Shown here one piece after another: positions 148 through 29,041 of a stretch of 29,041 nt of DNA. Source of the stretch: a virus; IMG/VR virus record IMGVR_UViG_3300036766_000162, positions 1 to 29,041 of that record; one strand, given 5' to 3'. A program made the translations under genes and the position numbers. Every line of letters begins with the position of its first letter. Position 1 is the stretch's first letter. A model generated the notes under the pieces. That model saw nothing but the letters and a program-made list of their open reading frames with translations, was not told where the DNA came from and did no database searches.

Positions 148-176
148 TTGACACGAGGACGGAGAGCTTTTAGACT
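148..176 (+). promoter_or_regulatory. sigma70-like promoter, leaderless start
   Basis: TTGACA at 148-153, a 17-base spacer and TAGACT at 171-176. The ATG of the HTH gene begins six bases later at 183, so the expected transcription start coincides with the start codon. A perfect 8-bp dyad (ACGGAGAG at 159-166, CTCTCCGT at 175-182) covers the spacer and -10 and ends at the base before ATG. Confidence 0.75.
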
Positions 177-182
177 CTCCGT
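159..182. repeat. operator-like inverted repeat over the promoter
   Basis: ACGGAGAG (159-166) and CTCTCCGT (175-182) are exact reverse complements separated by eight bases. The dyad overlaps the spacer and -10 of the first promoter. Because transcription is expected to begin at about 183, the dyad would not be transcribed, so it fits a DNA operator better than an RNA hairpin. The gene just downstream encodes a small HTH protein, so autoregulation is a reasonable guess. Confidence 0.55.
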
Positions 183-377
183 ATGACCCTCGACTACATT
201 CTATCAAATCCCAGCCAATCTTTCTCGTCTATAGATCTTGCCAAAGCGTTAAGGGTAGATCCTGTGAGTATTCGTCGGCGATTGGAGTCTGGAGTTCTCA
301 AGGGTGAATATGTTGCCGGACGGTGGATCATTCGGGGAGAGTGGATTAGTAATTACCTCTCCAAACAAAATGAGTGA
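183..377 (+). CDS. small helix-turn-helix DNA-binding protein (excisionase/MerR-like)
   Basis: 64 residues. The central part (about residues 17-60) reads as a winged-helix/excisionase-type HTH: SIDLAKALRVDPVSIRRRLE provides the two helices, followed by a GxxxGRWIIRGEWISNYL wing and last helix typical of helix_turn_helix_17 proteins. The start is fixed by the promoter, whose -10 ends six bases before this ATG. The stop overlaps the start of the replication initiator gene by eight bases, so the two are probably translated together. Likely roles are transcription control of the early block or an accessory origin-binding protein; there is no integrase nearby to support a true excisionase. Confidence 0.75.
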   Translation: MTLDYILSNPSQSFSSIDLAKALRVDPVSIRRRLESGVLKGEYVAGRWIIRGEWISNYLSKQNE

Positions 378-948
378 CGGTTGGATAAAAATTCATAGGA
401 AAATGAGGAAAAATCCTATTTACGGGAATCCTATTTCTCTGAAGATATGGATTGAGTGTTTGTTTGCTGCTACCCACGTGGATATAAAAATTGATTATTG
501 CGGAAAAGAAACTGTTTTGAAAAAGGGTTGGTTTGTGTTCGGCCGTTTAGAATGGGCAAAAAGACTAAAGATACCAGCAAGCACAATAAATGACTGGATT
601 TGCAAATTAGTTGATAGGGGGATGATTTCCCGACAGGTAACCCGACAGGGCAAATCAACCATTTTCGAGGTCAAAAATTGGGAAAAATATCAAGAACCCG
701 ACAGGTCTGGTGACAGCAAGGTGACAGCTGGCCGACAGCTGGCCGACACTAACAATAATTACAAGAATTACAAGAAAGATACATATGGGAAAAATCCCAT
801 TAGAGAAGACCCCGATTATGTCAAACTGAAAGCCCTAGACTTGACTACCGATCACGGGTCTAGACTTCAACCAGCCCTGCTAGATAAGCTTAACCGCCGT
901 TACCCCCTGTACCGTTTTGAAAAAGAATGGAATGATCTTAAAATATGA
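370..948 (+). CDS. phage replication initiator / replisome organiser-like winged-helix protein
   Basis: 192 residues from the ATG at 370, which overlaps the upstream stop; a longer in-frame start at 304 would lie inside the HTH gene and is less likely. The N-terminus (GWIKIHRKMRKNPIY, then a KKGWFVFGR segment) and a winged helix at about residues 53-108 (WAKRLKIPASTINDWICKL, ending VKNWEKYQ) match the N-terminal domain of phage DnaD/RepO-like replication proteins. The family binds origin repeats and loads the helicase. Residues 109-145 form a low-complexity linker whose DNA carries phased repeats and then an AT-rich stretch. The C-terminal helicase-loader-type domain is short, and no DnaD motif is obvious. 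Confidence 0.75.
   Translation: MSDGWIKIHRKMRKNPIYGNPISLKIWIECLFAATHVDIKIDYCGKETVLKKGWFVFGRLEWAKRLKIPASTINDWICKLVDRGMISRQVTRQGKSTIFEVKNWEKYQEPDRSGDSKVTAGRQLADTNNNYKNYKKDTYGKNPIREDPDYVKLKALDLTTDHGSRLQPALLDKLNRRYPLYRFEKEWNDLKI
629..749 (+). repeat. iteron-like YGACAG repeats inside the initiator gene (candidate origin)
   Basis: CCCGACAGG occurs three times (629-637, 641-649, 697-705). The core YGACAG begins at 631, 643, 699, 711, 722 and 733, with a variant CGACAC at 744. Spacing within clusters is 11-12 bases, about one helical turn. The stretch just downstream (750-784) is AT-rich, and a 6-bp dyad ATGGGA/TCCCAT lies at 785-800. Iterons plus an AT-rich region inside the initiator gene is the lambda O arrangement. 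The same DNA encodes a low-complexity protein linker, which could also produce repeats. Confidence 0.5.
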
Positions 949-1190
949 TCTGCTACTACTGTCAGGATCTGGAAATCCCGGACTCTGAGAAAAAGGAAGC
1001 CGTTCTCGATACCTATTTCTGTTGTCTGGAACACCAATCTCTTTATCAGAAGAGAAATTACACCGGCGGAAAACGCGACGGCCACTCAAATCTCACCGTT
1101 CCCGAGATGCAGGCGAGATTAAAGGAGATGGGTAGGAAAGCACGCACAGTAACCGACGCTGAGGCTATTTTTGGAGGATCGGACAATTGA
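945..1190 (+). CDS. small Cys-rich protein, possible zinc binding
   Basis: 81 residues, overlapping the initiator stop by four bases. The N-terminus has CYYC (residues 3-6), then CCLEH at about 26-30, giving four Cys plus a His that could form a zinc knuckle or treble-clef. The C-terminal half is charged (EMQARLKEMGRKAR). It is reminiscent of small phage zinc-finger proteins, but no specific family is recognised. It is the last gene of the first operon; the next promoter follows 15 bases after the stop. Confidence 0.55.
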   Translation: MICYYCQDLEIPDSEKKEAVLDTYFCCLEHQSLYQKRNYTGGKRDGHSNLTVPEMQARLKEMGRKARTVTDAEAIFGGSDN

Positions 1191-1205
1191 AGCTTTAGGG
1201 TGACA

Positions 1206-1234
1206 TTGACAGGGTGGGGGTTAAGTGGCATACT
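1206..1234 (+). promoter_or_regulatory. sigma70-like promoter
   Basis: TTGACA at 1206-1211, a 17-base spacer and CATACT at 1229-1234. The expected start is about 1241, leaving a leader of about 43 bases to the ATG at 1284. The sequence after the -10 (TACTACTCTTAAGATG) resembles the leader of the next promoter (TACTACCATTTAAGATG at 1510-1526). Confidence 0.7.
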
Positions 1235-1283
1235 ACTCTTAAGATGAGGGGTAGGCTGTCCTCCTACTCCTTATCTCCTAAAT

Positions 1284-1484
1284 ATGGGAAAAGAAAATCT
1301 ATTCCACTGGCAAAGTAACGACGTCACGACCTCTAAGGCCACGGAGCTGTCGACTCTCTTGGGATATGACCGTCCCCAGAGTTACGGCAGTGTCGGCCCC
1401 AACATCTCCCGCGTCGTCCGGGCGGCCGTAAACTACCTCTATAAGCACCGTTTTGGCCTCAAAGTCAGCGACTTGACACAGTAG
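1284..1484 (+). CDS. small hypothetical protein
   Basis: 66 residues, not recognised. The sequence is plausible coding, ending in a basic/aromatic stretch (VVRAAVNYLYKHRFGLKVSDL) that could be a helix or DNA-contact region. It is monocistronic, sitting between two strong promoters; the -35 of the next promoter (1473) lies inside its last codons. No Shine-Dalgarno is present. A competing 24-codon frame starts at 1244 nearer the predicted transcription start, so the start here is the better composition-based choice rather than a certainty. Confidence 0.5.
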   Translation: MGKENLFHWQSNDVTTSKATELSTLLGYDRPQSYGSVGPNISRVVRAAVNYLYKHRFGLKVSDLTQ

Positions 1485-1501
1485 GCGACGTATGGCATAA
1501 T
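1473..1501 (+). promoter_or_regulatory. strong sigma70-like promoter
   Basis: TTGACA at 1473-1478, a 17-base spacer and CATAAT at 1496-1501. The expected start is near 1508, a leader of about 22 bases to the nuclease ATG at 1530. An ATG-TAA minimal start-stop at 1524-1529 lies directly before the gene start. Confidence 0.75.
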
Positions 1502-1529
1502 GGGGGTATTACTACCATTTAAGATGTAA

Positions 1530-2258
1530 ATGCCTACCACAATCACGCCCCAGGGCCACTCCATTATAAAAAAGGTCATCGACGGAACCCACTACTATTA
1601 CGTTGACGGCGAATTCTACCCAGCCGTTACCCGGATCCTCGACGTCGCCGGCCCCGTAGAGTACGGCCTCCGCGCCTACTTCAAAAACAACACTCCCGAG
1701 GATATCGAGGAGAAGTCCCGCGTCTCCCTTGAGAAAGGCTCTCTGGTTCACGATGCAATAGAGCAGTTACTCAATGGCGTTGTCCTCCCCCTCGACAACT
1801 ACGAGGATCCGATGAAGAAGCTGATCGTCCGCTTCTATGAGTGGTATCAAACTTTCAAACCGACCGACTATCTCACCGAACAGACTATCTTCTCCCTGAA
1901 GTTCAAATACGCCGGTACCTGCGATTTGGTTGCCACGATCGGCGACAAGCGTGTCCTAATTGATTTCAAGACCAACAAGAACGGCATCTACTTCAATAAC
2001 AAGCTCCAGGTTATGGCCTACAAGCAGGCTTATGAGGAAACGACCGGCGAGCACATCGACGAGTGCTATGTCTTGCGTCTTGGAAGCCAACACAAGGCGG
2101 GTTACGAATTCAAAGAAATAGACGACGCCTCAATCGACGATTTTATGCAGGTCTACAACACCTACATCACAATGAACGGCGGAAAGATCCCGGAGCCGCC
2201 GATGGTTGAGGACTATCCCAAAACCCTACAATTACCAATTATCAGCTTACGCAAATGA
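1530..2258 (+). CDS. PD-(D/E)XK exonuclease, Cas4/RecB-like
   Basis: 242 residues with the RecB/Cas4 nuclease motifs in order: KGSLVHDAIEQL (about 69-80, motif His74), the TEQTIF strand (117-122), AGTCDLVATIG (128-138, metal-binding Asp132), VLIDFKTNK (142-150, Asp145 and Lys147) and QVMAYKQAY (160-168, QxxxY). Such phage enzymes act in recombination or DNA end processing in the cytoplasm. No iron-sulphur cysteine cluster typical of Cas4 is seen, so it is nearer to single-domain PDDEXK_1 phage nucleases. It is followed by overlapping genes ending in the ssDNA-binding-like protein, which suits a replication/recombination operon. Confidence 0.85.
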   Translation: MPTTITPQGHSIIKKVIDGTHYYYVDGEFYPAVTRILDVAGPVEYGLRAYFKNNTPEDIEEKSRVSLEKGSLVHDAIEQLLNGVVLPLDNYEDPMKKLIVRFYEWYQTFKPTDYLTEQTIFSLKFKYAGTCDLVATIGDKRVLIDFKTNKNGIYFNNKLQVMAYKQAYEETTGEHIDECYVLRLGSQHKAGYEFKEIDDASIDDFMQVYNTYITMNGGKIPEPPMVEDYPKTLQLPIISLRK

Positions 2259-3437: not shown

Positions 3438-4109
3438 ATGACCAGTCTAACGGCCCTCATCAGAATATCTCCTAAAATGCCGATGTCGGGCCAGCCCCCG
3501 TTCTTCACCGACAAATTTACGTTGGTCAACGCCTGTCACCTATCGTTCTTCTCCGCTGGCGACTGTGATCGTCACTACTTCCTCGATAACTGCCCGGTTG
3601 AATGGGACAAGCACTTCGAGTTTGCCGGCACCGTCCACCGAGGGATATGGGGAAAGCTGGAGAGTTTACACAACGTTTTCGACTTTGCCCGTAACCTGTC
3701 GGGTGACCTCCTTTTCTTGGAGGACGATTACCTTTGGCGCCCGGGGACGCTCCCTACCCTTGTTGAGGGTTTGGATCGCTTTGGCATGGTTTCTCCCTAT
3801 GATCACCCGGACTTCTACCACAAGGAGGGAATTACCTGTACTGAGGTCTACCGCCTTGGGGATCACCTCTGGCGCTGGTGTCCGACCAATACCCACACCT
3901 TTGCCGTCCGATCGGATATCCTCCGCGAGCACTTTGACGCGTTCCGTAACAACAATCTCCACGATTGGCAGATGTTCACCGAGCTCCAGATAGAGGGTGT
4001 GAGGCTCTATACGCCCCTCCTGTCGCTTGCTACCCACTTAGTTGAGGGAAAGCTGGCTTTAGGGGTAGATTGGGCTAAAGTCGCCGGGGGACTTGACTTT
4101 GGGAGTTAG
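3438..4109 (+). CDS. glycosyltransferase-like protein (GT-A fold)
   Basis: 223 residues. LLFLEDDYLWRPG at about 91-103 is the metal/nucleotide-sugar DxD region of a GT-A glycosyltransferase (E95 D96 D97), preceded by a helical segment and followed by a plausible acceptor region (HLWRWCPTNTHTFAVRSDIL). It starts one base after the preceding stop. Likely activity is transfer of a sugar from an activated donor to protein, DNA or cell-surface glycan. It is the first of four glycosyltransferases in the window and the only one in the early block. Its end overlaps the spacer of the next promoter. Confidence 0.7.
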   Translation: MTSLTALIRISPKMPMSGQPPFFTDKFTLVNACHLSFFSAGDCDRHYFLDNCPVEWDKHFEFAGTVHRGIWGKLESLHNVFDFARNLSGDLLFLEDDYLWRPGTLPTLVEGLDRFGMVSPYDHPDFYHKEGITCTEVYRLGDHLWRWCPTNTHTFAVRSDILREHFDAFRNNNLHDWQMFTELQIEGVRLYTPLLSLATHLVEGKLALGVDWAKVAGGLDFGS

Positions 4110-4122
4110 GTGGGACTATAAT
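4093..4122 (+). promoter_or_regulatory. sigma70-like promoter with consensus -10
   Basis: TTGACT at 4093-4098, an 18-base spacer and TATAAT at 4117-4122. The -35 lies within the last codons of the glycosyltransferase gene. A leader of about 43 bases runs to the ATG at 4172 and includes a small GAGC/GCTC hairpin. Confidence 0.75.
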
Positions 4123-4171
4123 ACGTCACAAGAGCTAATTCAGGCTCGGTACCTTAAGGAATTCAACCACT

Positions 4172-4384
4172 ATGGCTGATCCAACTCCTGCCGACTTCGG
4201 GGCAGACCACATCACCTCCGAGTCCACGCCTGATGGCGGTACTCACTCCACGGCCTATTCCGATACCGGCGGTCAGGTGTCTTGGAACACCGACAAGCAG
4301 GGCAACTATCAGGACGGCTCCGTCCATATGTCTGACCGCAATGACGGCCCAGACAATACGGACAATCCGAGCGTCTGGTGGTAG
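4172..4384 (+). CDS. small acidic low-complexity protein
   Basis: 70 residues, rich in Asp, Thr, Gly, Ser and Asn, with no hydrophobic core and a C-terminal VWW. It has its own strong promoter. An AAGGA lies 13 bases before the ATG, rather far for a ribosome-binding site. The composition suggests an unstructured or beta-type secreted or virion-associated peptide, or a nucleic-acid mimic; none of these can be decided. A structured RNA candidate follows directly. Confidence 0.5.
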   Translation: MADPTPADFGADHITSESTPDGGTHSTAYSDTGGQVSWNTDKQGNYQDGSVHMSDRNDGPDNTDNPSVWW

Positions 4385-4539: not shown

Positions 4540-4568
4540 TTGACTTACCCCACTAATGGGAGTATAAT
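4540..4568 (+). promoter_or_regulatory. strong sigma70-like promoter
   Basis: TTGACT at 4540-4545, a 17-base spacer and TATAAT at 4563-4568. A short dyad CCCA/TGGG (4549-4552, 4557-4560) sits in the spacer. The leader to ATG 4592 is about 17 bases. It probably drives the operon of small genes from 4592 onwards. Confidence 0.8.
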
Positions 4569-4591
4569 GGGCTACAATTATCAAATAGTAG

Positions 4592-4834
4592 ATGTATATG
4601 ACTTCCAAAACAAACTACATAGAAAAGGCTCTAAATGTCTTTAACGCCACAGGTAAGGCTATCTGCCCGGATTGTGGTATTGGTATGGTAGAGCTTGACG
4701 CCCGCGACAACGGCGACGATGACTACAACGTTTATCATTTATTGGAGTGCCCCACGTGTCTTATCCAGATCGAGTTGGACGGTCACTACGACGATCCGAC
4801 CGATATGGACGACGACTCCGGGGACGAGCAATAA
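4592..4834 (+). CDS. small zinc-ribbon protein
   Basis: 80 residues. CPDC (about residues 25-28) and CPTC (about 53-56) form a four-cysteine zinc ribbon separated by an acidic loop; the C-terminus is strongly acidic (DDPTDMDDDSGDEQ). Function is unknown. Acidic zinc-ribbon peptides in phages often act as transcription or host-takeover factors, but nothing here proves that. A second ATG two codons in (4598) could also start it. First gene of its operon. Confidence 0.65.
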   Translation: MYMTSKTNYIEKALNVFNATGKAICPDCGIGMVELDARDNGDDDYNVYHLLECPTCLIQIELDGHYDDPTDMDDDSGDEQ

Positions 4835-8793: not shown

Positions 8794-8822
8794 TTGAAGC
8801 TTTAGAGCGCCCTTGATAAGAT
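8794..8822 (+). promoter_or_regulatory. sigma70-like promoter, near-leaderless
   Basis: TTGAAG at 8794-8799, a 17-base spacer and TAAGAT at 8817-8822, with ATG five bases later at 8828. This spacing supports ATG 8828 over the upstream TTG at 8813. Confidence 0.5.
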
Positions 8823-8827
8823 TGGTG

Positions 8828-9142
8828 ATGGAATACGAACAGAACGAGGAGAGACTCAAGAAGCTTTCAAATGCGATCTCAAAAGCAGAGAGCAAATACG
8901 ATGTCGCTGATAAGGGTTGCTATTGCGGGGACTGTCTGAAGAGAGTTGCGGAGGAAGCCAACGACGCGATTTGGGATTTGCTTTGCGAGAATGAAGAGAT
9001 AGATGACATTGATCGGAGAGGATTGATGGCCGAGTTACAGTTCTACGTTATCCGCAACGGTATACACTCCAAGCTGGTCAGGGGAATTCAAGAAAGAGAT
9101 GGGTCTCGTCAACAGATGGAAATGAAAGGCTTAGGACTGTAA
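8828..9142 (+). CDS. small hypothetical protein before the terminase
   Basis: 104 residues from ATG 8828; a TTG at 8813 is possible but would lie across the -10. Mostly helical and acidic, with CYCGDC at about 34-39 that could hold a metal. Its position directly upstream of the large terminase would suit a small terminase subunit, but it shows no convincing DNA-binding HTH, so that is only a positional guess. Confidence 0.55.
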   Translation: MEYEQNEERLKKLSNAISKAESKYDVADKGCYCGDCLKRVAEEANDAIWDLLCENEEIDDIDRRGLMAELQFYVIRNGIHSKLVRGIQERDGSRQQMEMKGLGL

Positions 9143-9145
9143 ACT
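9140..9145 (+). promoter_or_regulatory. -10-like hexamer for leaderless terminase mRNA
   Basis: TAAACT begins at the stop codon of the upstream gene and ends exactly six bases before the terminase ATG (9152). The matching -35 position holds only TGGAAA (9117-9122). Weak alone, but the spacing repeats that of stronger promoters here. Confidence 0.35.
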
Positions 9146-9151
9146 ACCCCC

Positions 9152-10663
9152 ATGGAAGTCACCACACTCGAAAGCGAGATGGATCAGGGACACGACAGGT
9201 TTCGTGAGTTGTTGGAGATCCGCTATCACCGCCTTGTCAATGAGCCTCACCGCTATTTCACACCTACGGGTAAGTTTGAGGAGTTCATCAATCAAGCGAT
9301 GAGTGGCAAGTATATGGTTAACCTCTTTGAGGCGGCCAATGGCGTCGGCAAGACGTACGGGATGTCAATGTTGCTGGCCAATCTGTTCTGGCCTGTCAAC
9401 AACAAGTGGTGCAGAGCGCCTTTATTTAAACTTTGGCCTTTTCTCAAGAGGGGTCGTATTGTCTCCTATCCCAATACTGTTACTGAAACGCTCATCCCCA
9501 CTCTAAAGGCGTGTTTCCCTGTGGGTCGATACGGTCTGAGTCGTTATCAGACGACTAAGGAGGGCAAACGTTACGCCTCTCATTGGGTTACCGATACCGG
9601 CTTTGAGTTTACAATTATGACCTACGACCAAGAACCCCGGGAGTTTGAGTCGGCTAACCTGGGTTGGTTCTGGGAGGATGAACCGGCTACGCGTCCCATT
9701 CATACCGCTAACTACTCCCGTCTTCGTATGGGTGGCGTCGGATTCCTCACCGAGACGCCGCTTAAGGGCTCACAGTGGCTTTATGACGACATTGTCGACA
9801 AACCATACGACCAATTGGAGAAAGAGCATAAGTCCGTCATCACTGCGGACTTGGAATCGGCCTGTCAAGAGCACGGAATGCGAGGCTTTATGGCACACGA
9901 CAGGATTGAGGAGTTGGTTGCCGGCTATCCTGAGGAGGAGCTTCAGGCCCGCGTCTTTGGTAAGCACCACCACCTTTCGGGCTTGGTGTTTAAGAAGTGG
10001 ACGCCTGAGATACACGTCATCGATCCGTTCACTATTAATCCAGAGGACTACGTTGTTGTCCACTCTCTCGATCCTCATCCCCGGACGCCAGACGCTGGTA
10101 TCTGGGTAGCTATCGACCGCTACGGCCGGCACATTGTCTGCGACGAGTTATTTGAGGCGATTGAAACGACAGAGCTGGCCGCCAAGGTAAAGGCTAGAAA
10201 TAACGGTCTGCGTATCGTCAAGCAGTTGATTGATCCCGCCGCGTTCATTATTGACAAGCACACCGGCTATCAGTTAGCTAACGACCTGGATCGAAATTAC
10301 CAACTGACGTACGAGCCGGGAAGCAAGGAGAGGACTTTGGCTGTGAGCAAGATCCGAGAAGCTCTAGACTTCAAAATGGTCAATGGAGAGATGTTGGTTC
10401 CTCCCAAGCTTTATGTATTCAGGACGTGTCCCCACACTGCTTGGGAGATCAGCCGTTGGCAATGGCAGGACTGGCGTGGGCTGTCAGCACAGTTTAAGAA
10501 TCCTAAAGAGAAGCCGATGGATAAGGACGATCATATGGTGGAAGCTCTAGGAAGAGTTTTAGTAGCGGACATACACTTTGAAGAGATGTCGGCTCCGACG
10601 GACTTCACCGTTCGTGATACTATTGCGCGTAAGAATAATACCAATCTCGATCCCTATAAATGA
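9152..10663 (+). CDS. terminase large subunit
   Basis: 503 residues. The ATPase domain has Walker A AANGVGKT (61-68) and Walker B-like LGWFWEDEP (170-178). The nuclease domain has HSLDPHPRTPDAGIWVA (304-320; metal-binding Asp307), a LIDPAAF strand (359-365) and a late DKDDHMVEALGR segment supplying the last acidic residues. It pumps DNA into the prohead through the portal and cuts the concatemer. Length is normal. It is followed by overlapping small genes. No recognised small subunit is adjacent. Confidence 0.9.
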   Translation: MEVTTLESEMDQGHDRFRELLEIRYHRLVNEPHRYFTPTGKFEEFINQAMSGKYMVNLFEAANGVGKTYGMSMLLANLFWPVNNKWCRAPLFKLWPFLKRGRIVSYPNTVTETLIPTLKACFPVGRYGLSRYQTTKEGKRYASHWVTDTGFEFTIMTYDQEPREFESANLGWFWEDEPATRPIHTANYSRLRMGGVGFLTETPLKGSQWLYDDIVDKPYDQLEKEHKSVITADLESACQEHGMRGFMAHDRIEELVAGYPEEELQARVFGKHHHLSGLVFKKWTPEIHVIDPFTINPEDYVVVHSLDPHPRTPDAGIWVAIDRYGRHIVCDELFEAIETTELAAKVKARNNGLRIVKQLIDPAAFIIDKHTGYQLANDLDRNYQLTYEPGSKERTLAVSKIREALDFKMVNGEMLVPPKLYVFRTCPHTAWEISRWQWQDWRGLSAQFKNPKEKPMDKDDHMVEALGRVLVADIHFEEMSAPTDFTVRDTIARKNNTNLDPYK

Positions 10664-11449: not shown

Positions 11450-12177
11450 AAATATCTATTTGTCTGCCTAGTGTCAGGTGGGATTCAGTTCAAATCAACT
11501 ATCAGAGCTTACTCAAACAAACATTTCCTCAGAGAGATTTTGAAGTTCTTATATGTGCTCCGTTTAATAGATTTGAATTCACCAACGTGCGTTGGTTAGA
11601 CAATCCATCCAAGAATCCTGGTGACTATTATTCTTTAATGAAATCCTGGAACCGTTTGTTCTCCAACGCCAAGGGAGAGCTGTTCGTCACCGTTTGCGAC
11701 AATGAGTGGATAGACAGAGAAGCATTAGAGAGATTATGGAACCGATACGAGGAGAATCCGCGAGCACTTGTCTCTGGTATCGGTAATCACTATCGAGACG
11801 TTTTGTCTGACGGAATAGGTATTGATCTTGTTGCCCCAGACGTTCGCCCATCTCAAATGCTTAAGCGATTTCAGATGTCTTCCGTTGCCAACTGCGATCA
11901 GGCTCTCTGTTCTATCCCCCGCAGGGCTGTATACGATGTGGGTGGCGTTGAGGAGGAGTTTGACAAGGTCGCCTCCAATGGTGAGCAGGAGATGCTTGAG
12001 CGTATGATTCAAGCTGGCTACACTACCTGGGTTGATCAGGACGTCAAATATGTTGCCAAATACCACGAGCGACTTAATGTCGACTGGAACCGCAAGTTTG
12101 CTGAGGGTCGTGAGCTATACTTCAAATACAAGCCGTCAATTCTCGCCGGTGATAGACTAAAGTTAGAGTATATTTAA
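11446..12177 (+). CDS. family 2-like glycosyltransferase
   Basis: 243 residues from ATG 11446 (ATGA overlap with the previous stop). The N-terminus MKISICLPSVR, the SLLKQTFPQRDFEVLICAP repeat of the GT2 fold, and GELFVTVCDNEWID at about 77-90 in the place of the DxD strand indicate a GT-A glycosyltransferase. A GGVEEEFD segment in the second half is typical of GT2 acceptor-side loops. The DxD is not canonical (CDNEW), so activity is inferred. It sits between terminase and portal genes. Confidence 0.75.
   Translation: MKISICLPSVRWDSVQINYQSLLKQTFPQRDFEVLICAPFNRFEFTNVRWLDNPSKNPGDYYSLMKSWNRLFSNAKGELFVTVCDNEWIDREALERLWNRYEENPRALVSGIGNHYRDVLSDGIGIDLVAPDVRPSQMLKRFQMSSVANCDQALCSIPRRAVYDVGGVEEEFDKVASNGEQEMLERMIQAGYTTWVDQDVKYVAKYHERLNVDWNRKFAEGRELYFKYKPSILAGDRLKLEYI
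12169..12174 (+). promoter_or_regulatory. -10-like hexamer before portal gene (weak)
   Basis: TATATT ends six bases before the portal ATG (12181), the same spacing as at other leaderless starts. No -35 or extended -10 is visible, so this may be chance. Confidence 0.25.
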
Positions 12178-12180
12178 GCT

Positions 12181-14232
12181 ATGCCAGACGCATCACCAGC
12201 CCCAGCCAAAGAGATCGTTACCAACTACCCCGATGGAGCCAAAAGATATCGGCAGTTGAATGGTGGGGCTGACGACTATAACAACGATCAGTCGCCGTAC
12301 AAGACCCTCATTGCTCAGATCCGTGTTGAGTATGAGATTGCTTACCGTGCGCAAGCGTCACGCATCCAGTTGTTACTTAACCGGCTTCGACTTTTCAACA
12401 ATCAGCGTCGGGATCCAGATACCGTAGGTGACAACCTACTGTTTACCATATTTCAATCCGTTCTTTCGGCTTTGTACACCGACAGAATGAGCGTTGAGTT
12501 CGTCGGCCGTTCAGCGGCTCGGGACGACATCGCGGAGTCTCTCAACAACACCGCCAAGTTTGACTACGACGAGATGGGTAAGGCTCAGGTCGACTACACC
12601 TGGGACTGGGACACCCTATTCTTCGGTACAGGATTGGTGGCTATATCTGAGTTTGACCGTGAGCGTATGGTTCCCAAGTTAGACAACTGGGACTATATGT
12701 GTACTCTCCACGATCCCGACGCAATCTCCGTTAACGGTGGTCAGGACGGCAAGGGTGCGGCTCGGTTCTTTGGCCGCGAGATCATGGTTCGTGGTATCGA
12801 TGTCGAGGATATCCCCTCGGTCTTTGACTTCGACCACATGAAGACGACACGACCCAATCGATCTCTCTTTGAACAAGCACGTCAGCAACGAGAGTCCGCG
12901 CAAGGGCTCAACAACCAAATCAAGTACGACGAGAAAGATATGGGAGTCAACGCCCGTAAGCCTCTGTTGGAATGGTTAACGTGGTGGGAACACCCGGATC
13001 TAACCGGGGGAGTTCCGAAGCAGGTACTCGTCTGGGTTGGCAACGATCAGCAAAAGGTTTGCCGATTCAAAGTGTTGGAGCACCCCTACTGGCCCGTCGT
13101 CCATCGCAAACTATTCCCGACGGCCCACCAATGGGACTCGGTCTCCATTCCCGATCTTACTGAAGATAAACAGCGCTTGCGTGCTATTCTCCTGAACCTT
13201 GGTATCAAACAAATGAAGTCTGGGTTGTTCGGGATGTACCTCTACGACAAAAACAAGATCAAAAACAAAGCTGACCTTAACTTTGACTTTGACAAACAAA
13301 TTCCCGTTGACGTTAAGAAAGGCGACAGTCTTGTCAATACTGTTCAGGCAATGCCCCGCGACTACGCCAACCTACAGTTCTTCAACAACATTATGCAGGC
13401 TCTCGATATATCGGCTCAAAGGGCAACATCAACGCCTGAGATGCAGATGGGTGTTCCTACACAAAAGGGAGGAAAGAAAACAGCCACAGAGGTTCAGAAG
13501 ACTGATACCAGCTCAACAATTCACTATTCTCTCTCTACCCGTATCTGGGGTTGGTCGGAAATGGAGTTCTGGGAGCAGTGGTACGGTCTCTATGAGGAGC
13601 ACTTCAAGTCACGAATCGATGAGAAGTTGGTTCGTATCAACACCACCTTTGGGCCGAAGTTCAAGTGGATTATCCGATCGGATATCATCTCAAAGACTAC
13701 GCCCGACGTTGTCATTACCTCAAAACTTGTATCAGATCAGCAGAAAGCGGCCGAAAGGGTTCAGTTACTTAACTTGGGTCAGTTAATTATCGGCTTGCCC
13801 GGCTCCAATATCCGCTACTACACCAAGAAGATGGCGAAGCTTCACGGCTTGTCCTCGGATGAGGTTGATCGTATCATCCCTCCGACGCCCGATGAGCTGA
13901 ATGCGCGCAACGAGAATATCGCCTTGGAGGACAACAAGTTCGTTCCGATCGGCCAGCAAGACAACGATGAAGAACACTTGGAGGAGCACGCTAAGGGATA
14001 CGAGACTCCCGATATGATCGCTCACATTGCCGCTCACCAACATCAACGTGAACTCAAGAAGAGCAACCCCAATCTATTCCCCGGACAGCAACAGAAACAG
14101 CAGGCGGATCAACAGAACCGTGACAGTATGGGCAATACAATGGGTAAGGTTAACAAGAAGAAGCCGAACCAACCGGCCACTCAACCCGGCCAGATGGGTA
14201 TGGCGCCTAGTGTTGGAGCAATGCCCCAATGA
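12181..14232 (+). CDS. portal protein
   Basis: 683 residues, typical for a large phage portal. The N-terminal part (PDTVGDNLLFTIFQSVLSALYTDRM, then ESLNNTAKFDYDEMG and DTLFFGTGLVAISEFD) matches portal clip/wing segments. The middle contains an LRAILLNLGIKQMKSG stem region and a TEVQKTDTSS segment, and the C-terminus is Gln/Asn-rich and flexible. The portal forms the dodecameric channel at one capsid vertex and docks the terminase. Its position after terminase and before scaffold and capsid supports this. Confidence 0.85.
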   Translation: MPDASPAPAKEIVTNYPDGAKRYRQLNGGADDYNNDQSPYKTLIAQIRVEYEIAYRAQASRIQLLLNRLRLFNNQRRDPDTVGDNLLFTIFQSVLSALYTDRMSVEFVGRSAARDDIAESLNNTAKFDYDEMGKAQVDYTWDWDTLFFGTGLVAISEFDRERMVPKLDNWDYMCTLHDPDAISVNGGQDGKGAARFFGREIMVRGIDVEDIPSVFDFDHMKTTRPNRSLFEQARQQRESAQGLNNQIKYDEKDMGVNARKPLLEWLTWWEHPDLTGGVPKQVLVWVGNDQQKVCRFKVLEHPYWPVVHRKLFPTAHQWDSVSIPDLTEDKQRLRAILLNLGIKQMKSGLFGMYLYDKNKIKNKADLNFDFDKQIPVDVKKGDSLVNTVQAMPRDYANLQFFNNIMQALDISAQRATSTPEMQMGVPTQKGGKKTATEVQKTDTSSTIHYSLSTRIWGWSEMEFWEQWYGLYEEHFKSRIDEKLVRINTTFGPKFKWIIRSDIISKTTPDVVITSKLVSDQQKAAERVQLLNLGQLIIGLPGSNIRYYTKKMAKLHGLSSDEVDRIIPPTPDELNARNENIALEDNKFVPIGQQDNDEEHLEEHAKGYETPDMIAHIAAHQHQRELKKSNPNLFPGQQQKQQADQQNRDSMGNTMGKVNKKKPNQPATQPGQMGMAPSVGAMPQ

Positions 14233-16945: not shown

Positions 16946-16974
16946 TTGACAGACTGGCTTGGTGCTGTTAATCT
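16946..16974 (+). promoter_or_regulatory. sigma70-like promoter, leaderless start
   Basis: TTGACA at 16946-16951, a 17-base spacer and TAATCT at 16969-16974; ATG follows after exactly six bases at 16981. Confidence 0.75.
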
Positions 16975-16980
16975 ACCTCT

Positions 16981-17466
16981 ATGGCAAACCGAATAACGGA
17001 AGCTGATTTGAAGTCTGGTACTGACTTGGTTATGAAAGACGGAGTACCGACAGACGTTGAAACGAAATTACCCCAAGTTACTGACAAAGAGTTTAAGGAA
17101 ATTCAGACCAAAAAGGAGACTGATGTCGCAACGGTTACGATGAATGATCGGGATAAGGACTTTGCGTGGCATCGACAACACACCTTTGACATCATTAGTG
17201 CTCAACCAAGAGAGCCCATCTTGGTTCCTTTCAACACTGGCGAAGATCAAAACAACCGAGGCAACTGGTATCAGTTCTTCGGAATCAACGGAGCCTATTG
17301 GATGGTTCGTAAGGGACAGATCGTCTACGTTCCCCAGCGTATCGCCGAGATGTGGCGTGAGTCACAGGTAAAGGGAGTAACGGAGACAGATATGCTTTTG
17401 AGTAATCTCGGTAACAAAATTGACCCGGTCACTGGTGGTAAGAAAAACTCCGCAGTTCTTTCGTAG
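16981..17466 (+). CDS. hypothetical virion-block protein
   Basis: 161 residues. It has a charged, probably flexible first third (to about 55), then a compact part with PILVPFNTGEDQNN, WYQFFGINGAYWMVRKGQIVYVPQRIAEMW (about 80-128). The RKGQIVYVPQ-IAE motif recurs in small phage proteins encoded next to capsid genes; its function is unknown, possibly a minor head protein. Own leaderless promoter. Confidence 0.6.
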   Translation: MANRITEADLKSGTDLVMKDGVPTDVETKLPQVTDKEFKEIQTKKETDVATVTMNDRDKDFAWHRQHTFDIISAQPREPILVPFNTGEDQNNRGNWYQFFGINGAYWMVRKGQIVYVPQRIAEMWRESQVKGVTETDMLLSNLGNKIDPVTGGKKNSAVLS

Positions 17467-17471: not shown

Positions 17472-17477
17472 TACACT
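17472..17477 (+). promoter_or_regulatory. -10 hexamer, leaderless start
   Basis: TACACT at 17472-17477 ends exactly six bases before ATG 17484. The -35 position (17449-17454, TCCGCA) is poor, so the promoter is likely weak or activator-dependent. Confidence 0.45.
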
Positions 17478-17483
17478 AGAACT

Positions 17484-18305
17484 ATGACCAATGCCCAATT
17501 TGCCTCATATTGTAGGCTTAAAACCAAGACCAACTCCACTACTTTTACTGATGCCAATCTCCAGCTTCTCACCAACATCTACAAGGATGAAATCGCCGGG
17601 AAATTAGTTGATATCGTAGACGAGGATTATTTTGGTGTACCGCAGTTTACCGACCTCGTTAATGGTCAACGTGAGTATCCACTTCCCGGTGACTTGCCCG
17701 GCAAATTCAAAAAGGTTGAGGCAGTGTTGGATCCGACGTTTCTTGATAATCAAGGAAACCCTGTATGGGTAGATTTAAGAAAGTTTGATTTGACACAACT
17801 CTCGGCCTTGTCTCAAAACCTAGTCGTTGGCGATCCTGATCAGGGTACGAGCTTTAGCGTTTCTCCGACAACCAATGAGGATAATATCCAGCAACTATTT
17901 GGCAACCGTCAGGGTTCAGCCGCCTTTATGGTATTCCGCAACTCTCTCTGGATATTCTCCGGCGCTCTCACAGGATTTGTCGCCAATAATCAGTATCTTA
18001 AGCTCTGGGGTTACGAATGGCCGGCCGACGTCAACAACTTCGCTCTCACTACTGATTTATCTACAGATCCCAACCCTACATCTGCCGGTATGCCTCGGCA
18101 GGTTCACCTCCCTTGGGCTGACAGAGTGGTCTTAGCTTGGAAGCAAACCTCGGACAAGAATTATCAGCCGGACGACTACGAAGCGGCTACCGAAACTCGC
18201 CTCCACGATGCCATTATGTCACTCATTCCCGTTGATAAGGCTGAGTCTTATACCTCTACCCAGCCAATGGGAGGACAGCTCTGGAATAACGGTTACAATC
18301 TGTAA
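17484..18305 (+). CDS. head-tail adaptor / neck protein-like
   Basis: 273 residues. The start with helical segments (DANLQLLTNIYKDEIAGKLVD) followed by YFGVPQFTDLVNGQREYPLPGDLPGKFKKVEAV is a familiar phage pattern of proteins that lie between capsid and tail genes and act as head-tail connectors. The C-terminal part contains VHLPWADRVVLAWKQTSDKNY and a last helix. The connector role comes from pattern and position; there is no single diagnostic residue. The last codons and stop form part of a 6-bp dyad (18291-18307). Confidence 0.6.
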   Translation: MTNAQFASYCRLKTKTNSTTFTDANLQLLTNIYKDEIAGKLVDIVDEDYFGVPQFTDLVNGQREYPLPGDLPGKFKKVEAVLDPTFLDNQGNPVWVDLRKFDLTQLSALSQNLVVGDPDQGTSFSVSPTTNEDNIQQLFGNRQGSAAFMVFRNSLWIFSGALTGFVANNQYLKLWGYEWPADVNNFALTTDLSTDPNPTSAGMPRQVHLPWADRVVLAWKQTSDKNYQPDDYEAATETRLHDAIMSLIPVDKAESYTSTQPMGGQLWNNGYNL

Positions 18306-18309: not shown

Positions 18310-18338
18310 TTGACAATTGGTTGACAATTACTTATCCT
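18310..18338 (+). promoter_or_regulatory. sigma70-like promoter, leaderless GTG start
   Basis: TTGACA at 18310-18315, a 17-base spacer and TATCCT at 18333-18338; after exactly six bases comes a GTG (18345). This spacing argues for GTG 18345, not the TTG at 18321, as the start of the glycosyltransferase. Confidence 0.65.
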
Positions 18339-18344
18339 GCGGGG

Positions 18345-19454
18345 GTGAACGAAACCGAAAACGGTAAGACACTTAAGTTTACTTTCTACTCTGGTGAGAC
18401 GTTTGAGCCTTGGGACTTCCACAACCCTTTGGAGGTCGGTATTGGCGGTTCTGAGACGGCACAGGTCGAGATGGCGATCCGATTGGCACAGAGGGGCTAT
18501 GACGTCGTTTCCTACTCACCTAAGCCAACACACGAGGACGAGTTGTTCAGGGGAGTCTTATGGAAATCAAACGAGAGGGTCAACTACATCCGAGAGGGTG
18601 TCTGGGTGATCTCACGAGCCGCTACGGTGACTGACCACTTCCCAAAATCGCACCCCAAACAAAAATTATGGCTCGTCTGTCAAGATATTGATTACCATAG
18701 AGCCACCAAGAAGCAATTGGAGGCGTTTGACAGGGTCTTTCCTCTTTGTACCGCCCAACTTAAGCATTTCAAAAACATTTGTCCCTACCTAAAGGATCGT
18801 CTGACTGTCAGTTCAAATGGTATCAGAACGGATTATATTAACTCAATCAAGGAGATAGAGCGCAATCCTTTCCGACTTATGTTCGCTTCGTCTCCCGATC
18901 GAGGGCTTCTACCTTTACTTAAGATATTTAAGAAAGCGAAAGAGAGGATACCTCAACTTGAACTCCACGTTTTCTACGGTTTCAACAACATAAACAAGAT
19001 AATTGGCAGTGACACCGTGCCTCTGGGAATGGAACAGGTGACCAAGAGAGATATTCTTCAATGGATGAAGCAACCCGGGGTTACTGATCACGGACGGATT
19101 GGTCAGGGTGACCTTTACATTGAGTGGCTTAAGTCTGGTGTCTGGTGTCACCCATCAGCGGTTTTCCCCGAGACAAGTTGTATTACCTCAATGGACGCCC
19201 AAGCGTGTGGCGCTATCCCCATCACGGCGCCCCTGTGGGCTTTGGTAGACAATGTGAAGTACGGTTACTTGCTGGACGTGCTCCCCTTAACCGATCCTGT
19301 GGCCCGCCTAGACTATGTTGACGCCTTGGTTGACCTACTTGTTAAACGTGACTCTCAAGAGGTTGAGGCAATACGTGCGAAAATGCGGGAATACGCACTT
19401 ACCCGATTTGATTGGGAGAGGGTGGTTGATCAGTATTTAGAACTCGCAAAATGA
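18345..19454 (+). CDS. family 4-like (GT-B) glycosyltransferase
   Basis: 369 residues from GTG 18345. The N-terminal domain has VGIGGSETAQVEMAIRLAQRGYDV, the GG turn of GT-B enzymes. The C-terminal domain has a LMFASSPDRGL segment, HGRIGQGDLYIEWLKSGVWCHPS and then FPETSCITSMDAQACGAIPIT, the donor-binding E-x(7)-E-like region of GT4. It would transfer a sugar from a nucleotide donor to a phage or host acceptor. It overlaps the next gene, also a glycosyltransferase, by four bases. Confidence 0.8.
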   Translation: MNETENGKTLKFTFYSGETFEPWDFHNPLEVGIGGSETAQVEMAIRLAQRGYDVVSYSPKPTHEDELFRGVLWKSNERVNYIREGVWVISRAATVTDHFPKSHPKQKLWLVCQDIDYHRATKKQLEAFDRVFPLCTAQLKHFKNICPYLKDRLTVSSNGIRTDYINSIKEIERNPFRLMFASSPDRGLLPLLKIFKKAKERIPQLELHVFYGFNNINKIIGSDTVPLGMEQVTKRDILQWMKQPGVTDHGRIGQGDLYIEWLKSGVWCHPSAVFPETSCITSMDAQACGAIPITAPLWALVDNVKYGYLLDVLPLTDPVARLDYVDALVDLLVKRDSQEVEAIRAKMREYALTRFDWERVVDQYLELAK

Positions 19455-20143: not shown

Positions 20144-20172
20144 TTGACAACGCATACTAGAGATGTAATACT
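20144..20172 (+). promoter_or_regulatory. sigma70-like promoter
   Basis: TTGACA at 20144-20149 and AATACT at 20167-20172 (17-base spacer) or TAATAC at 20166-20171 (16). A leader of about 22 bases to ATG 20200 contains an 8-bp hairpin (20172-20179 with 20189-20196). Confidence 0.6.
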
Positions 20173-20199
20173 TTTGGTAGTTATCAGTTACCGAAAAAT

Positions 20200-20748
20200 A
20201 TGATTGCTCAATCTAAGATGAAATTAACAGGCTGGACAGAGTTCGCTCTGTTTGATAAATTTGGTAATCGTAAGCCTCTATTTCACGCCAACGCTCTGTG
20301 GAAACTGCTTCACAAAACTTTCAACGTTGATTTACGGGTTCCCTTTCTTCTTGGTAACTGGAGTCTCCGTTCTCTTAGTTTAAACACCGTCACTACCCGT
20401 GGTAAGCAAATCGCCGCCGAGCAAGTTGGTGGAACGACCGCCGTCCCAGTGACTGCTATCGCTATCGGTATCGGTTCCCCCTCAGCTACGGCCCTTGGGT
20501 CTGAGATCACTACTGGTGGTGGATCGCGCGGCGCCGCCGCCGTTACCAACACGATCACTACGACTACGGGTGACACCGAGCAATGGGTGAAAACATTTAC
20601 CTTTAGCCTTTCCTTTGCTGTTACCGAAGAGGGTCTGTTCGACAACAACACCTCTGGTGGAAATATGCTCTGCTCGCAAAGTTTCTCCGCCGTCAACGTC
20701 AACAACCTTGACTCACTACAAGTAACCCACAAAGTTAAGTTTGCTTAA
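20200..20748 (+). CDS. virion structural protein, tail block
   Basis: 182 residues. The second half (GIGSPSATALGSEITTGGGSRGAAAVTNT, DTEQWVKTFTFSLSFAVTEEGLFDN, SQSFSAVNVNNLDSLQVTHKVKF) follows a pattern of phage tail-associated beta proteins: an early Gly/Thr-rich turn, an AVTE-GLF strand and a DSL-VT end. A downstream ATG (20218) is also possible. Precise role unknown. First gene of the tail block. Confidence 0.6.
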   Translation: MIAQSKMKLTGWTEFALFDKFGNRKPLFHANALWKLLHKTFNVDLRVPFLLGNWSLRSLSLNTVTTRGKQIAAEQVGGTTAVPVTAIAIGIGSPSATALGSEITTGGGSRGAAAVTNTITTTTGDTEQWVKTFTFSLSFAVTEEGLFDNNTSGGNMLCSQSFSAVNVNNLDSLQVTHKVKFA

Positions 20749-25367: not shown

Positions 25368-25376
25368 TGCTATACT
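25368..25376 (+). promoter_or_regulatory. extended -10 promoter, leaderless start
   Basis: TGC followed by TATACT (25371-25376); ATG 25383 follows after exactly six bases. No good -35 is seen, as expected for an extended -10 promoter. Confidence 0.6.
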
Positions 25377-25382
25377 TGAACT

Positions 25383-26081
25383 ATGTTTGGAGGAATGAAT
25401 TACGGTCAGGGACTATTTGGAGGGGAGATACTATCAGGCGATACGAGAGTGACCTTTAGTGAGGTTACAACCGTGTCCGACCTCCTATCGAATGAAGCCC
25501 AAAAACTCTTGACGGAAACTACGACGGTTACTGACTCAATCATCAGAAAGACATCAAAGAGTCTGCTCGAGACGGTATCAATATCAGATATATTCAGCGC
25601 TGTCTTCATCTCCCTCCTCAGCTTACTGGACACAATAAACGTGATCGACAGCATAACCAGATTTATCACCAAGGTGCGCTCAGATATCTCTACCGTAACC
25701 GATACCCTTGCTAATAGACTATCTCGCGGTCTCTCCGACAACTTTTCTCTGACCGATACTTTATCCACTCTCCGTGCGTTCATTCGTACTTTCACAGATA
25801 CGTTCAGCTTGTCAGAGATATTTACCGCCGCCACCAATAAGGTTTTCGTATTCTTGGAGACGATTACAGCCTCCGACTCCGTGGTCAAACTCAAGACAAT
25901 CTTCAAGACTCTTACCGACAACATTGCCTTATCGGAAGTCATCACCCGATTTACTTCCAAGGTTCTTAGGGACACAACTGTTGTCTCCGAGATATTCCAA
26001 AAGTTCTTAAACGGACTATTACAAAACTGGAGCAAGGTTCCCAAGCCTACATCTTTGTGGACTAAGCAACCGAAACCCTAA
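25383..26081 (+). CDS. tail protein of about ten 18-21-residue repeats
   Basis: 232 residues. After a Gly-rich start (MFGGMNYGQGLFGGE), units of the form L-x-E/D-T-x-T-V-S/T-D-S/T-I/L-x(8-10) repeat about ten times (ETTTVTDSI, ETVSISDIF, DTINVIDSI, DISTVTDTL, DNFSLTDTL and so on), ending in a Pro/Lys-rich tail. The regular length suggests a beta-helical or fibrous rod, plausible for a tail or fibre shaft. Unequal repeat recombination could change its length. Own leaderless promoter. Confidence 0.6.
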   Translation: MFGGMNYGQGLFGGEILSGDTRVTFSEVTTVSDLLSNEAQKLLTETTTVTDSIIRKTSKSLLETVSISDIFSAVFISLLSLLDTINVIDSITRFITKVRSDISTVTDTLANRLSRGLSDNFSLTDTLSTLRAFIRTFTDTFSLSEIFTAATNKVFVFLETITASDSVVKLKTIFKTLTDNIALSEVITRFTSKVLRDTTVVSEIFQKFLNGLLQNWSKVPKPTSLWTKQPKP

Positions 26082-27535: not shown

Positions 27536-28863
27536 TGGACTTAACAAATCAGGCATTCTCTTGGCTTCCGCCCATATTCGGCCAGCAAAACCTCCAGCAG
27601 AGTCTTCTTAATATGAACGGCGACCAGTCTATTGGCAATATGTCCTCGTTGGCCGTTGGCTTTGGCAACACGGCTATGTACACAGACAGACAGGGGATCT
27701 TCCTCGGTAACACCAAGTTTGCCTCAGCACCTTTCAGTGTCGATATGAACGGCGCTCTGGTGGCGAGTGGGGCAACTATAAGCGGAACGATTACGGCCAC
27801 TTCGGGAACCATTGGTGGATGGAATATCGGAGCAACTACTTTATCTAACAACAACACGACTCTTGATAGTGGTGGAAGCGTCAGGGTAGGAACAGGAAAC
27901 GATATTGCTATTTTGAACGCTCTTGACGCTAACTATCGCATTTGGGTCGGTAACGCTACTCCCGCCTCGGCACCATTCTCAGTTAAGAAAAATGGTGACG
28001 TTCTGTGTAACAATTTGACAGCTACTGGAAGCATTGTTAGTAGTGCGAGTAATGACAGAATCTTTTTTGACAATTCTGACAATTCTTTGAAGATCTACAA
28101 TGGGGGTGTAGTTAGAGGCCAGATGAGAGGAGCAAGTTCGGGTCTTGGTTTCGTAGCTGAAGTAGGAAGTTATATTACCAGACGCGACGAGGGATTTTAC
28201 TCAAGTTCAAGTACAACCACTTTTACCGATTTCTCCAAGTTTTATTCGGCTAACCTGTCACCATTTGGGCTTATAACGGTAGTAGAAATGTTGGCTAATA
28301 ACAAGTTCGGTGTGTTTGGTTCTGGTCAGACTGGGCCGTACTTAACCGTCTCTGCGGCGGCAGTTGGTCTGTTGGCTAACAAAGTTACTCTCAAAGATGA
28401 CACGAATATTGAGGGGATCGATGTTCTCAAGGGTTTCAACGATGTACGTATACAGACTAACAAGACCGGCAGTGATGTCGATAACAGCGTCAAGATCCTT
28501 GACGGAAACGGAACGGAGTTAATGAGCCTAAAACCAATCGGCGCGACAACCTCCCGACTAGATATGAATGGTCATTCACTTACCCTTGGATCAGACAAAA
28601 CCGCCATTGTACCCGTTGCCGGAGAATTCAGAGCACTTTATGCGGTTGAATCGCCGGACGTATGGTTCTGTGATTTCTGCGACAACAAGGACAGTATTTC
28701 CAAGCTATTTTTAGACGTTACAGAGGGGGATATGAGGTTCATCAAGGCCGACAAGGGCTATCAGGTGTGGCGGAGACGCAAGGGACACGCCAATAAGCGG
28801 TTCGAGAAGAAGAGCTACCTCCAATTTATTAAGAACGAAGCCTTTTTGTCGATGGCTAAGTAA
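27535..28863 (+). CDS. tail fibre / spike-like protein
   Basis: 442 residues, sharing one base with the upstream gene. Beta-helix-type segments SGTITATSGTIGGWNIGATTLSNN (about 82-106) with the IGGW motif are typical of fibre shafts; the middle is beta-repetitive. The last 80 residues (YAVESPDVWFCDFCDNKDSISKLFLDVTEGDMRFIK, then YQVWRRRKGH) form a distinct C-terminal domain found on phage and prophage tail proteins. Likely a receptor-binding fibre. No autoproteolytic chaperone motif is obvious. Confidence 0.65.
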   Translation: MDLTNQAFSWLPPIFGQQNLQQSLLNMNGDQSIGNMSSLAVGFGNTAMYTDRQGIFLGNTKFASAPFSVDMNGALVASGATISGTITATSGTIGGWNIGATTLSNNNTTLDSGGSVRVGTGNDIAILNALDANYRIWVGNATPASAPFSVKKNGDVLCNNLTATGSIVSSASNDRIFFDNSDNSLKIYNGGVVRGQMRGASSGLGFVAEVGSYITRRDEGFYSSSSTTTFTDFSKFYSANLSPFGLITVVEMLANNKFGVFGSGQTGPYLTVSAAAVGLLANKVTLKDDTNIEGIDVLKGFNDVRIQTNKTGSDVDNSVKILDGNGTELMSLKPIGATTSRLDMNGHSLTLGSDKTAIVPVAGEFRALYAVESPDVWFCDFCDNKDSISKLFLDVTEGDMRFIKADKGYQVWRRRKGHANKRFEKKSYLQFIKNEAFLSMAK

Positions 28864-28864
28864 G

Positions 28865-28873
28865 TGTTATCAT
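28865..28873 (+). promoter_or_regulatory. extended -10 promoter, leaderless start
   Basis: TGT followed by TATCAT (28868-28873); ATG 28880 follows after exactly six bases. No -35 is seen. Confidence 0.5.
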
Positions 28874-28879
28874 AACTGC

Positions 28880-29041
28880 ATGGATCAGATCAAAGCCAAA
28901 GTTGAGGAATTACAAACAAAGAAGTCACAGATCCTCGACGAACTGAATGCCATTAAGAATAAAGAATCGGAGTTGACTTTAGAATATGCCAAATTAGATG
29001 GAGCAATTCGAGAATTATCAAATCTAGTTCCCCACGAAGAT
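28880..29041 (+). CDS. coiled-coil protein, N-terminal part (runs off the window)
   Basis: 54 codons open to the right edge. The sequence is a heptad-rich helix (IKAKVEELQTKKSQILDEL, then KESELTLEYAKLDGAIREL), i.e. a coiled coil with many Glu/Lys. Short coiled-coil proteins at the end of tail blocks are common but this one cannot be assigned. The start is supported by the -10 six bases upstream. Confidence 0.6.
   Translation, partial: MDQIKAKVEELQTKKSQILDELNAIKNKESELTLEYAKLDGAIRELSNLVPHED

Follow-up and report, generated by a model that had tools for sequence, protein, structure and literature searches.

The −10-like hexamer at start codons

The window, meaning the whole stretch of DNA analysed here, is a 29,041-base virus record (IMGVR_UViG_3300036766_000162) in which all listed genes lie on the + strand. 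It is a fragment of an uncultured tailed phage that probably infects ultra-small Patescibacteria. In nine of its genes exactly six bases separate a −10-like hexamer, TANNNT, from the start codon, a spacing that would place the 5′ end of the mRNA on the start codon itself. A first-pass annotation of this DNA had given ten positions for the hexamer, and all ten were correct: nine lie at offset 6 (the offset being the number of bases between the end of TANNNT and the start codon) and one, before gene 8828, lies at offset 5. Genes are named here by the first base of their start codon. The −35 elements claimed at a 17-base spacing were found at genes 183, 16981 and 18345 (TTGACA) and 14610 (TTGACC). 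The extended −10 claimed at two genes was also found, with TGC preceding TATACT at gene 25383 and TGT preceding TATCAT at gene 28880. Six of the nine offset-6 sites therefore have a sigma70-type element, either a −35 at 16–18 bases or TGN.

148..185, + strand: predicted leaderless promoter of gene 183, TTGACA-17-TAGACT-6-ATG
8811..8830, + strand: weak −10-like TAAGAT five bases from ATG 8828; −35 not found
9140..9154, + strand: TAAACT six bases from ATG 9152 (terminase large subunit); −35 match just 4/6
12169..12183, + strand: TATATT six bases from ATG 12181 (portal-like), overlapping the end of the preceding gene; −35 match 2/6
14575..14612, + strand: predicted leaderless promoter TTGACC-17-TATTGT-6-ATG 14610, conserved at gene 7091 of the relative G001 (introduced below)
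16946..16983, + strand: predicted leaderless promoter TTGACA-17-TAATCT-6-ATG 16981, conserved at G001 gene 9325
17472..17486, + strand: TACACT six bases from ATG 17484; the G001 ortholog 9829 has TTGACG-17-TACAAT-6-ATG
18310..18347, + strand: predicted leaderless promoter TTGACA-17-TATCCT-6-GTG 18345
25368..25385, + strand: extended −10 TGCTATACT-6-ATG 25383
28865..28882, + strand: extended −10 TGTTATCAT-6-ATG 28880; the gene continues beyond the end of the record

Sigma70-like promoters followed by leaders of about 17–81 bases precede genes 1284, 1530, 4172, 4592, 15283 and 20200.

1206..1286, + strand: TTGACA-17-CATACT, 43-base leader, ATG 1284
1473..1532, + strand: TTGACA-17-CATAAT, 22-base leader, ATG 1530
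4093..4174, + strand: TTGACT-18-TATAAT, 43-base leader, ATG 4172
4540..4594, + strand: TTGACT-17-TATAAT, 17-base leader, ATG 4592
15167..15285, + strand: TTGACA-17-TATTCT, 81-base leader, ATG 15283 (major capsid gene)
20144..20202, + strand: TTGACA-17-AATACT (TG precedes the −10), about 21 bases from ATG 20200

We scanned offsets 0–39 in two sets of starts: 46 listed by hand, and 47 called by our own motif-blind gene-calling script (unpublished). The start rule of the script was altered once, by adding a per-codon bonus, since genes were cut short; under its first setting it recovered seven of the nine sites, all except 183 and 28880. TANNNT lay at offset 6 in 9/46 hand-listed starts and in 0–3 at any other offset. 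The script returned 9/47 starts, the identical nine. The first-pass annotation had proposed a comparison of start codons with a shuffled control, and this comparison revealed offset-6 enrichment: across 1000 dinucleotide shuffles the mean at offset 6 was 1.18 and the maximum 6, and nine was reached at no offset. Of 377 + strand ATGs that do not begin a gene, two had the motif at offset 6.

The closest relative found was IMGVR_UViG_3300027826_000002 (G001; 40,356 bases), with 78% identity to the window in the capsid protein and about 61–62% in the terminase, and a G+C content of 39% (window, 48%). Phage records held no near DNA match to window bases 1–25000. We observed the same peak in G001, where 9/63 called starts carry the offset-6 motif (9/62 with full upstream sequence). 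The hexamer was also linked to a −35 element. A −35 matching at least 5/6 positions at 16–18 bases was found at 4/9 offset-6 sites in the window, compared to 3.5% of all TANNNT, and at 7/9 in G001, compared to 3.6%. Perfect TTGACA with a 16–18-base spacer and a −10 match occurs at 13 sites on both strands of the two genomes, and the predicted transcription start falls exactly on a start codon for six of them.

These counts bear on the idea that the peak reflects the choice of start codons, or chance in A+T-rich upstream sequence. The claimed coordinates were already known when the starts were hand-listed, and 8828 and 18345 were chosen over upstream TTG codons. However, the upstream-blind caller gave the same starts, G001 has the same peak although it was called without prior coordinates, and three ortholog alignments start at residues 1–6. 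We regard an artefact or chance as extremely unlikely, and rejected both on the blind caller, the shuffles and the G001 replicate.

We also looked for a Shine-Dalgarno signal, scored as GGAG, GAGG or AGGA 5–15 bases before starts and set against a control stretch. No such signal was seen in the window (4/47 starts vs 6/47 in the control stretch). The window thus has two sequence marks of the TA-led gene class discussed below, with fixed-position TANNNT above shuffles and no Shine-Dalgarno signal.

The gene landmarks that define the two sides of the window are listed here; further virion proteins also lie on the virion side.

370, + strand, replication side: DnaD-like helicase loader
1530, + strand, replication side: exonuclease
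2665, + strand, replication side: possible single-strand binding protein
7632, + strand, replication side: polynucleotide-kinase-type protein
8333, + strand, replication side: Holliday junction resolvase
9152, + strand, virion side: terminase large subunit (phrog_2)
12181, + strand, virion side: portal-like protein (SU10_portal, below the Pfam cut-off); no relatives found in viral contigs or phage records
15283, + strand, virion side: major capsid protein (phrog_1357)

The motif was absent from translationally coupled starts, at 0/21 in the window and 0/22 in G001 (Fisher P = 0.002 and 0.02). Uncoupled starts carry it in 9/25 cases in the window (gap of at least 3 bases) and 9/41 in G001. Within the window it marks 8/13 uncoupled starts on the virion side and 1/12 on the replication side (Fisher P = 0.011), where promoters instead have leaders of 17–43 bases. 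The earlier statement that nearly every uncoupled gene follows the rule was overstated, since exact offset 6 is found at 9/25 overall and about 60% (8/13) on the virion side. Its companion, that late genes form many small transcription units rather than one operon, was not supported: terminator-like sites between 9042 and 29041 number 15, compared to 18.6 in shuffles. Because such sites are not in excess between late genes, nested or overlapping late transcripts with internal leaderless starts would fit equally well.

A further reading accepts the promoters as real and holds that late mRNA comes mostly from read-through of a long operon, with leaderless starts as minor internal boosts. We give it a real but minority chance. 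Late genes are tightly packed, with gaps of 3–39 bases ahead of motif-bearing starts, terminator-like sites show no excess (15 vs 18.6), and a strong leadered promoter lies mid-region, ahead of the capsid gene. However, genes lying 9–39 bases past a stop codon would need some other way of loading ribosomes without a Shine-Dalgarno sequence, and the motif sits on exactly such gapped genes and never on coupled ones.

Two promoterless genes counted as uncoupled, 6815 and 7267, actually sit behind tiny reading frames. The mini-ORF (open reading frame) at 6766–6813 (15 codons) ends at the start of gene 6815, and that at 7226–7270 (14 codons) ends at the start of gene 7267 via an ATGA overlap. The two are alike (TNTNWRL), as if delivering ribosomes by coupling. 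Together, the motif distribution, the leadered promoters and the mini-ORFs give a picture in which gene starts in the window may be served by coupling, by a promoter set directly at the start or by a short leader.

Conservation in relatives and in the candidate host

Three orthologous genes carry the motif in both phages (14610/7091, 16981/9325 and 17484/9829). In the first two pairs the −35 agrees at 5/6 positions and the −10 at 4/6, with TTGAC and TA...T kept, and the spacer agrees at merely 5/17 (14610/7091) and 4/17 (16981/9325). In the third pair the −10 is conserved (5/6) and the −35 is not. Gene 10660, adjacent to the terminase gene, is coupled in the window, and its G001 counterpart 4250 has TTGACC-17-TAGAAT-6-ATG. 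Gene 18345 shows the opposite, with a promoter in the window and a coupled counterpart in G001. Coupling and putative leaderless promoters thus visibly replace each other between the two phages in some genes.

We profiled wider relatives, other than the window and G001, using 59 contigs that are 6,000 bases or longer and whose terminase shares about 40% identity or more. Merging upstream stretches that were almost identical reduced 1190 starts to 1088. TANNNT was found at offset 6 in 59/1088 starts, compared to 22.4 per background offset, and 7 of these 59 sites have a −35 (control sites, 3/228). The Shine-Dalgarno motif preceded 78 of the 1088 starts vs 87 in the control, which is no signal. 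Because of this use of offset 6 above background, the trait appears to be lineage-wide, and it is sharpest in the window and G001. Distant terminase relatives (<30% identity) have a Shine-Dalgarno motif at 119/228 starts and no offset-6 peak (5 vs 4.6 expected). Group C phages, which have only structural gene 21821 in common with the window, show no Shine-Dalgarno signal and a weaker offset-6 rise (31/417 vs 15.1).

We searched bacterial genomes with a terminase profile and found five loci, of which the best two were in Patescibacteria metagenome-assembled genomes (MAGs). These two terminase contigs fit their own MAGs (tetranucleotide correlation 0.91 and 0.99), although they may be mis-binned phage contigs. 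We then scanned Patescibacteria for the motif, using the 35 of 40 stretches that are at least 5,000 bases long, drawn as two sub-samples, with control groups of our own choosing. TANNNT lay at offset 6 in 47/420 uncoupled starts, compared to 14.8 expected, and the second sub-sample alone gave 27 vs 6.7 expected. TGN precedes the −10 in 22/47 of these sites and in 15/139 control sites. No offset-6 excess was observed in the Bacteroidota-side (5 vs 5.4) or Verrucomicrobiota-side (2 vs 2.7) samples. Because the peak is present in Patescibacteria and not in the two other phyla sampled, the phage host is rather likely to belong to Patescibacteria. Leaderless genes appear to be common in this phylum, judging by the same motif.

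These results also bear on whether the hexamer is a promoter at all. It could be an A+T-rich translation signal, such as a site for ribosomal protein S1 or a region of low structure. Non-Shine-Dalgarno genes of several phyla are biased towards A+T from about −20 to −10, and the authors who describe this name Pribnow boxes or S1 sites as possible causes (PMC5397173). However, the hexamer is strongly linked to TTGACA at 16–18 bases, the −35 bases are conserved in orthologs and the spacer is not, and TGN is enriched ahead of the hexamer in Patescibacteria. On the −35 linkage, the ortholog conservation and the TGN enrichment we rejected a pure translation signal, which we consider highly improbable.

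Alternatively, the phage might encode its own sigma factor or polymerase to read the late promoters, in place of a host sigma70-type factor. A late-specific factor could be common to the nine window genes, and many window genes had no family match when 30 proteins were compared with PHROGs and 10 with Pfam. However, the same comparisons gave no match to a sigma factor or polymerase family, and the late promoters consist of ordinary TTGACA/TANNNT or TGNTANNNT elements, as found before replication-side genes and before Patescibacteria genes. We found no support for a phage-specific late factor, and its involvement is very unlikely.

We next considered the observations that weigh against leaderless transcription from host-type promoters. 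In the window, the major capsid gene 15283 breaks the leaderless rule, and three of the nine sites (9152, 12181 and 17484) lack both a −35 of at least 5/6 and TGN. In G001, 1.1% of shuffles reached nine at some offset, because the genome is A+T-rich; the orthologs of 9152, 12181 and 18345 lack the motif; and the excess in the virion half is only a trend (7/23 vs 2/18, P = 0.25). This phage also makes some use of Shine-Dalgarno sequences (11/62 starts vs 3), chiefly away from its virion half (9/34 vs 2/29 starts, P = 0.05). Among the wider relatives offset 8 is raised too (51 vs 22.4), which shows that the spacing is variable, and few orthologs carry the motif, for example 1/58 for the terminase and 2/47 for the portal-like gene. 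As for the host, the remaining terminase loci lie in a Verrucomicrobiota MAG, a Bacteroidia MAG and, as a weak match, in Desulfobacterales. The tetranucleotide correlation between the window and the best host candidate is just 0.55. The terminase was found (E 1e-10) in 1/379 Patescibacteria genomes, compared to 1/296 and 2/194 in two other phyla, so its frequency across whole genomes fails to separate the phyla. The offset-6 sites of Patescibacteria show no link to a −35 (3/47 vs 6/139 control sites), in contrast to those of the phage. The support comes from sequence statistics.

Overall, the fixed-offset enrichment, the −35 link, the absence at coupled genes, G001 and the Patescibacteria peak suggest that host sigma70-type promoters very probably yield leaderless mRNAs for many virion-side genes of this probable Patescibacteria phage. 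The leaderless reading of the first-pass annotation is thus well supported by sequence statistics, and it overreaches as regards gene coverage and separate late units. In the proposed mechanism, many genes would be reached by translational coupling, through an overlapping ATGA or an adjacent stop and start. Many of the remaining genes, mostly virion-side, would have a host sigma70-type promoter with its −10 ending six bases before the start. Because of that spacing, the first base transcribed would be the A (or G) of the start codon, and the leaderless mRNA would then be translated via direct ribosome binding to the 5′-terminal start codon. A smaller set, chiefly the major capsid gene and genes for replication, would use promoters with real leaders. 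The promoter-like sequences with their exact spacing, statistics and conservation, and the lack of a Shine-Dalgarno signal, are direct observations. We infer the transcription start at start codons, the leaderless translation and the Patescibacterium host from these patterns.

The capsid gene leader and other features

The capsid leader in the window contains a stable hairpin (about 15225–15255) and T6 ahead of ATG 15283. The G001 capsid gene has TTGACA-17-TATATT and a 58-base leader with hairpin, T7 and ATG in that order, the T-run abutting the ATG. Both hairpins are more stable than shuffled sequence (z −3.65 in the window, −5.35 in G001). The hairpin could serve to attenuate transcription, to stabilise the 5′ end of the mRNA or to separate transcripts. 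A promoter–hairpin layout precedes the capsid gene in the related contigs L080 and L132 as well, and in most of the other relatives its place is taken by a short A+T-rich stretch. In L061 (7894–7989), a promoter and a terminator-like hairpin with a T-run lie in the capsid leader, as in window 15167–15285. G001 gene 12539 is a second case of the hairpin-T7-ATG layout.

Late-gene leaders of L098, L132 and L134 contain a repeated hairpin of about 20 bases joined directly to a terminator-like hairpin. The repeated hairpin is of the type GCTYA-CGG-AAATA-CCG-ARGC, and 4/6 stem pairs vary on both sides.

L134: copies at 9870, 12961, 13011, 15168 and 16001
L132: copy at 10702; by eye also before 7786 and 9338
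L098: copy at 8145; also before 9662

Two tandem copies precede the L134 capsid gene. In appearance the element resembles a leader for attenuation or antitermination. A motif scan found no copy in the window or G001, and no Rfam family matched. One form of the hairpin was found in 28 stretches of the collection, and among these a terminator follows the hairpin only in L098 and L134 contig copies.

We made several other observations on gene content. A tRNA gene lies at window 8251–8331 (Rfam 53.1 bits) with an irregular anticodon arm; ARAGORN was unable to assign it and gave the four-base anticodon ‘gtct’. Genes 16282 and 16613 (window 16282–16945) are adjacent and resemble tandem duplicates, both matching the single G001 gene 8958 (46% and 44%). 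The capsid match is interrupted at about residue 86 by about 700 bases in L076 (6576–8291) and L131 (6691–8331), and the terminase is likewise split in contigs G006 and G007. Introns or homing elements are possible causes of these splits.

Leaderless expression in known systems and its meaning

Leaderless expression has been described in Actinobacteria, Deinococcus-Thermus, archaea and a few phages. In a survey of TA-led genes, TANNNT about 12 bp upstream is interpreted as the −10 box of leaderless genes, and an extended TG is reported for low-G+C groups (Zheng et al. 2011, PMC3160421). The distance from the first T of TANNNT to the start, 12 bp, is the same in the window. That survey covered 953 bacterial and 72 archaeal cellular genomes, whereas we studied a phage and its relatives; Patescibacteria and phages are not among the groups named in the portions of it available to us (PMC3160421). 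In Deinococcus-Thermus, 5′-TANNNT-3′ about 6–7 bp before the ORF was experimentally identified as the −10 of leaderless genes, and adding a −35 raises expression (PMC12340547). That system belongs to another phylum, and no phage was analysed in the text searched; compared to its motif, several window sites already have a consensus −35 (PMC12340547).

Leaderless phage transcripts are a known but rare mode. Most middle and late mRNAs of Thermus phage phiYS40 were reported to be leaderless, according to the sections of a review that we consulted; its host is of another phylum, and a shift in IF2/IF3 was proposed (PMC3594737). We looked for a similar split into leaderless late and leadered early genes by genome half; the motif marks 8/13 uncoupled starts on the virion side of the window and 1/12 on the replication side, and the difference is weaker in G001 (7/23 vs 2/18). 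The middle and late promoters of Thermus phage P23-45 are of the extended −10 class, like those at window 25383 and 28880 (PMC7403470). P23-45 gp39 shuts off −10/−35 promoters, whereas the window keeps a −35 at four of nine sites (PMC7403470). The major capsid protein of Page-like Bacillus podoviruses (Page, Pony and Pascal) is homologous as well (about 33% identity), and these phages have other hosts. Searches of an open-access library, judged partly by titles and the starts of abstracts, gave no report of leaderless genes in Patescibacteria or in phages that infect them.

A broader proposal, which we hold tentatively and at slightly less than an even chance, is that a sizeable share of mRNAs across the phylum Patescibacteria is leaderless and made from extended −10 promoters that lie six bases ahead of the start, and that this phage lineage is fully adapted to it. 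The adaptation would comprise the absence of Shine-Dalgarno sequences, coupling within gene pairs, leaderless host-type promoters for many virion genes, and a leadered capsid gene whose hairpin may act as attenuator or stabiliser. The leaderless reading predicts mRNA 5′ ends on start codons, which could be checked in metatranscriptomes with 5′-end resolution. If true, it would help to assign gene starts in phages and genomes of this kind, since a −10 located six bases upstream identifies the correct one. It would also extend leaderless expression to a phage lineage that lacks a Shine-Dalgarno signal and, with the same test applied, to Patescibacteria, a large phylum of uncultured bacteria.

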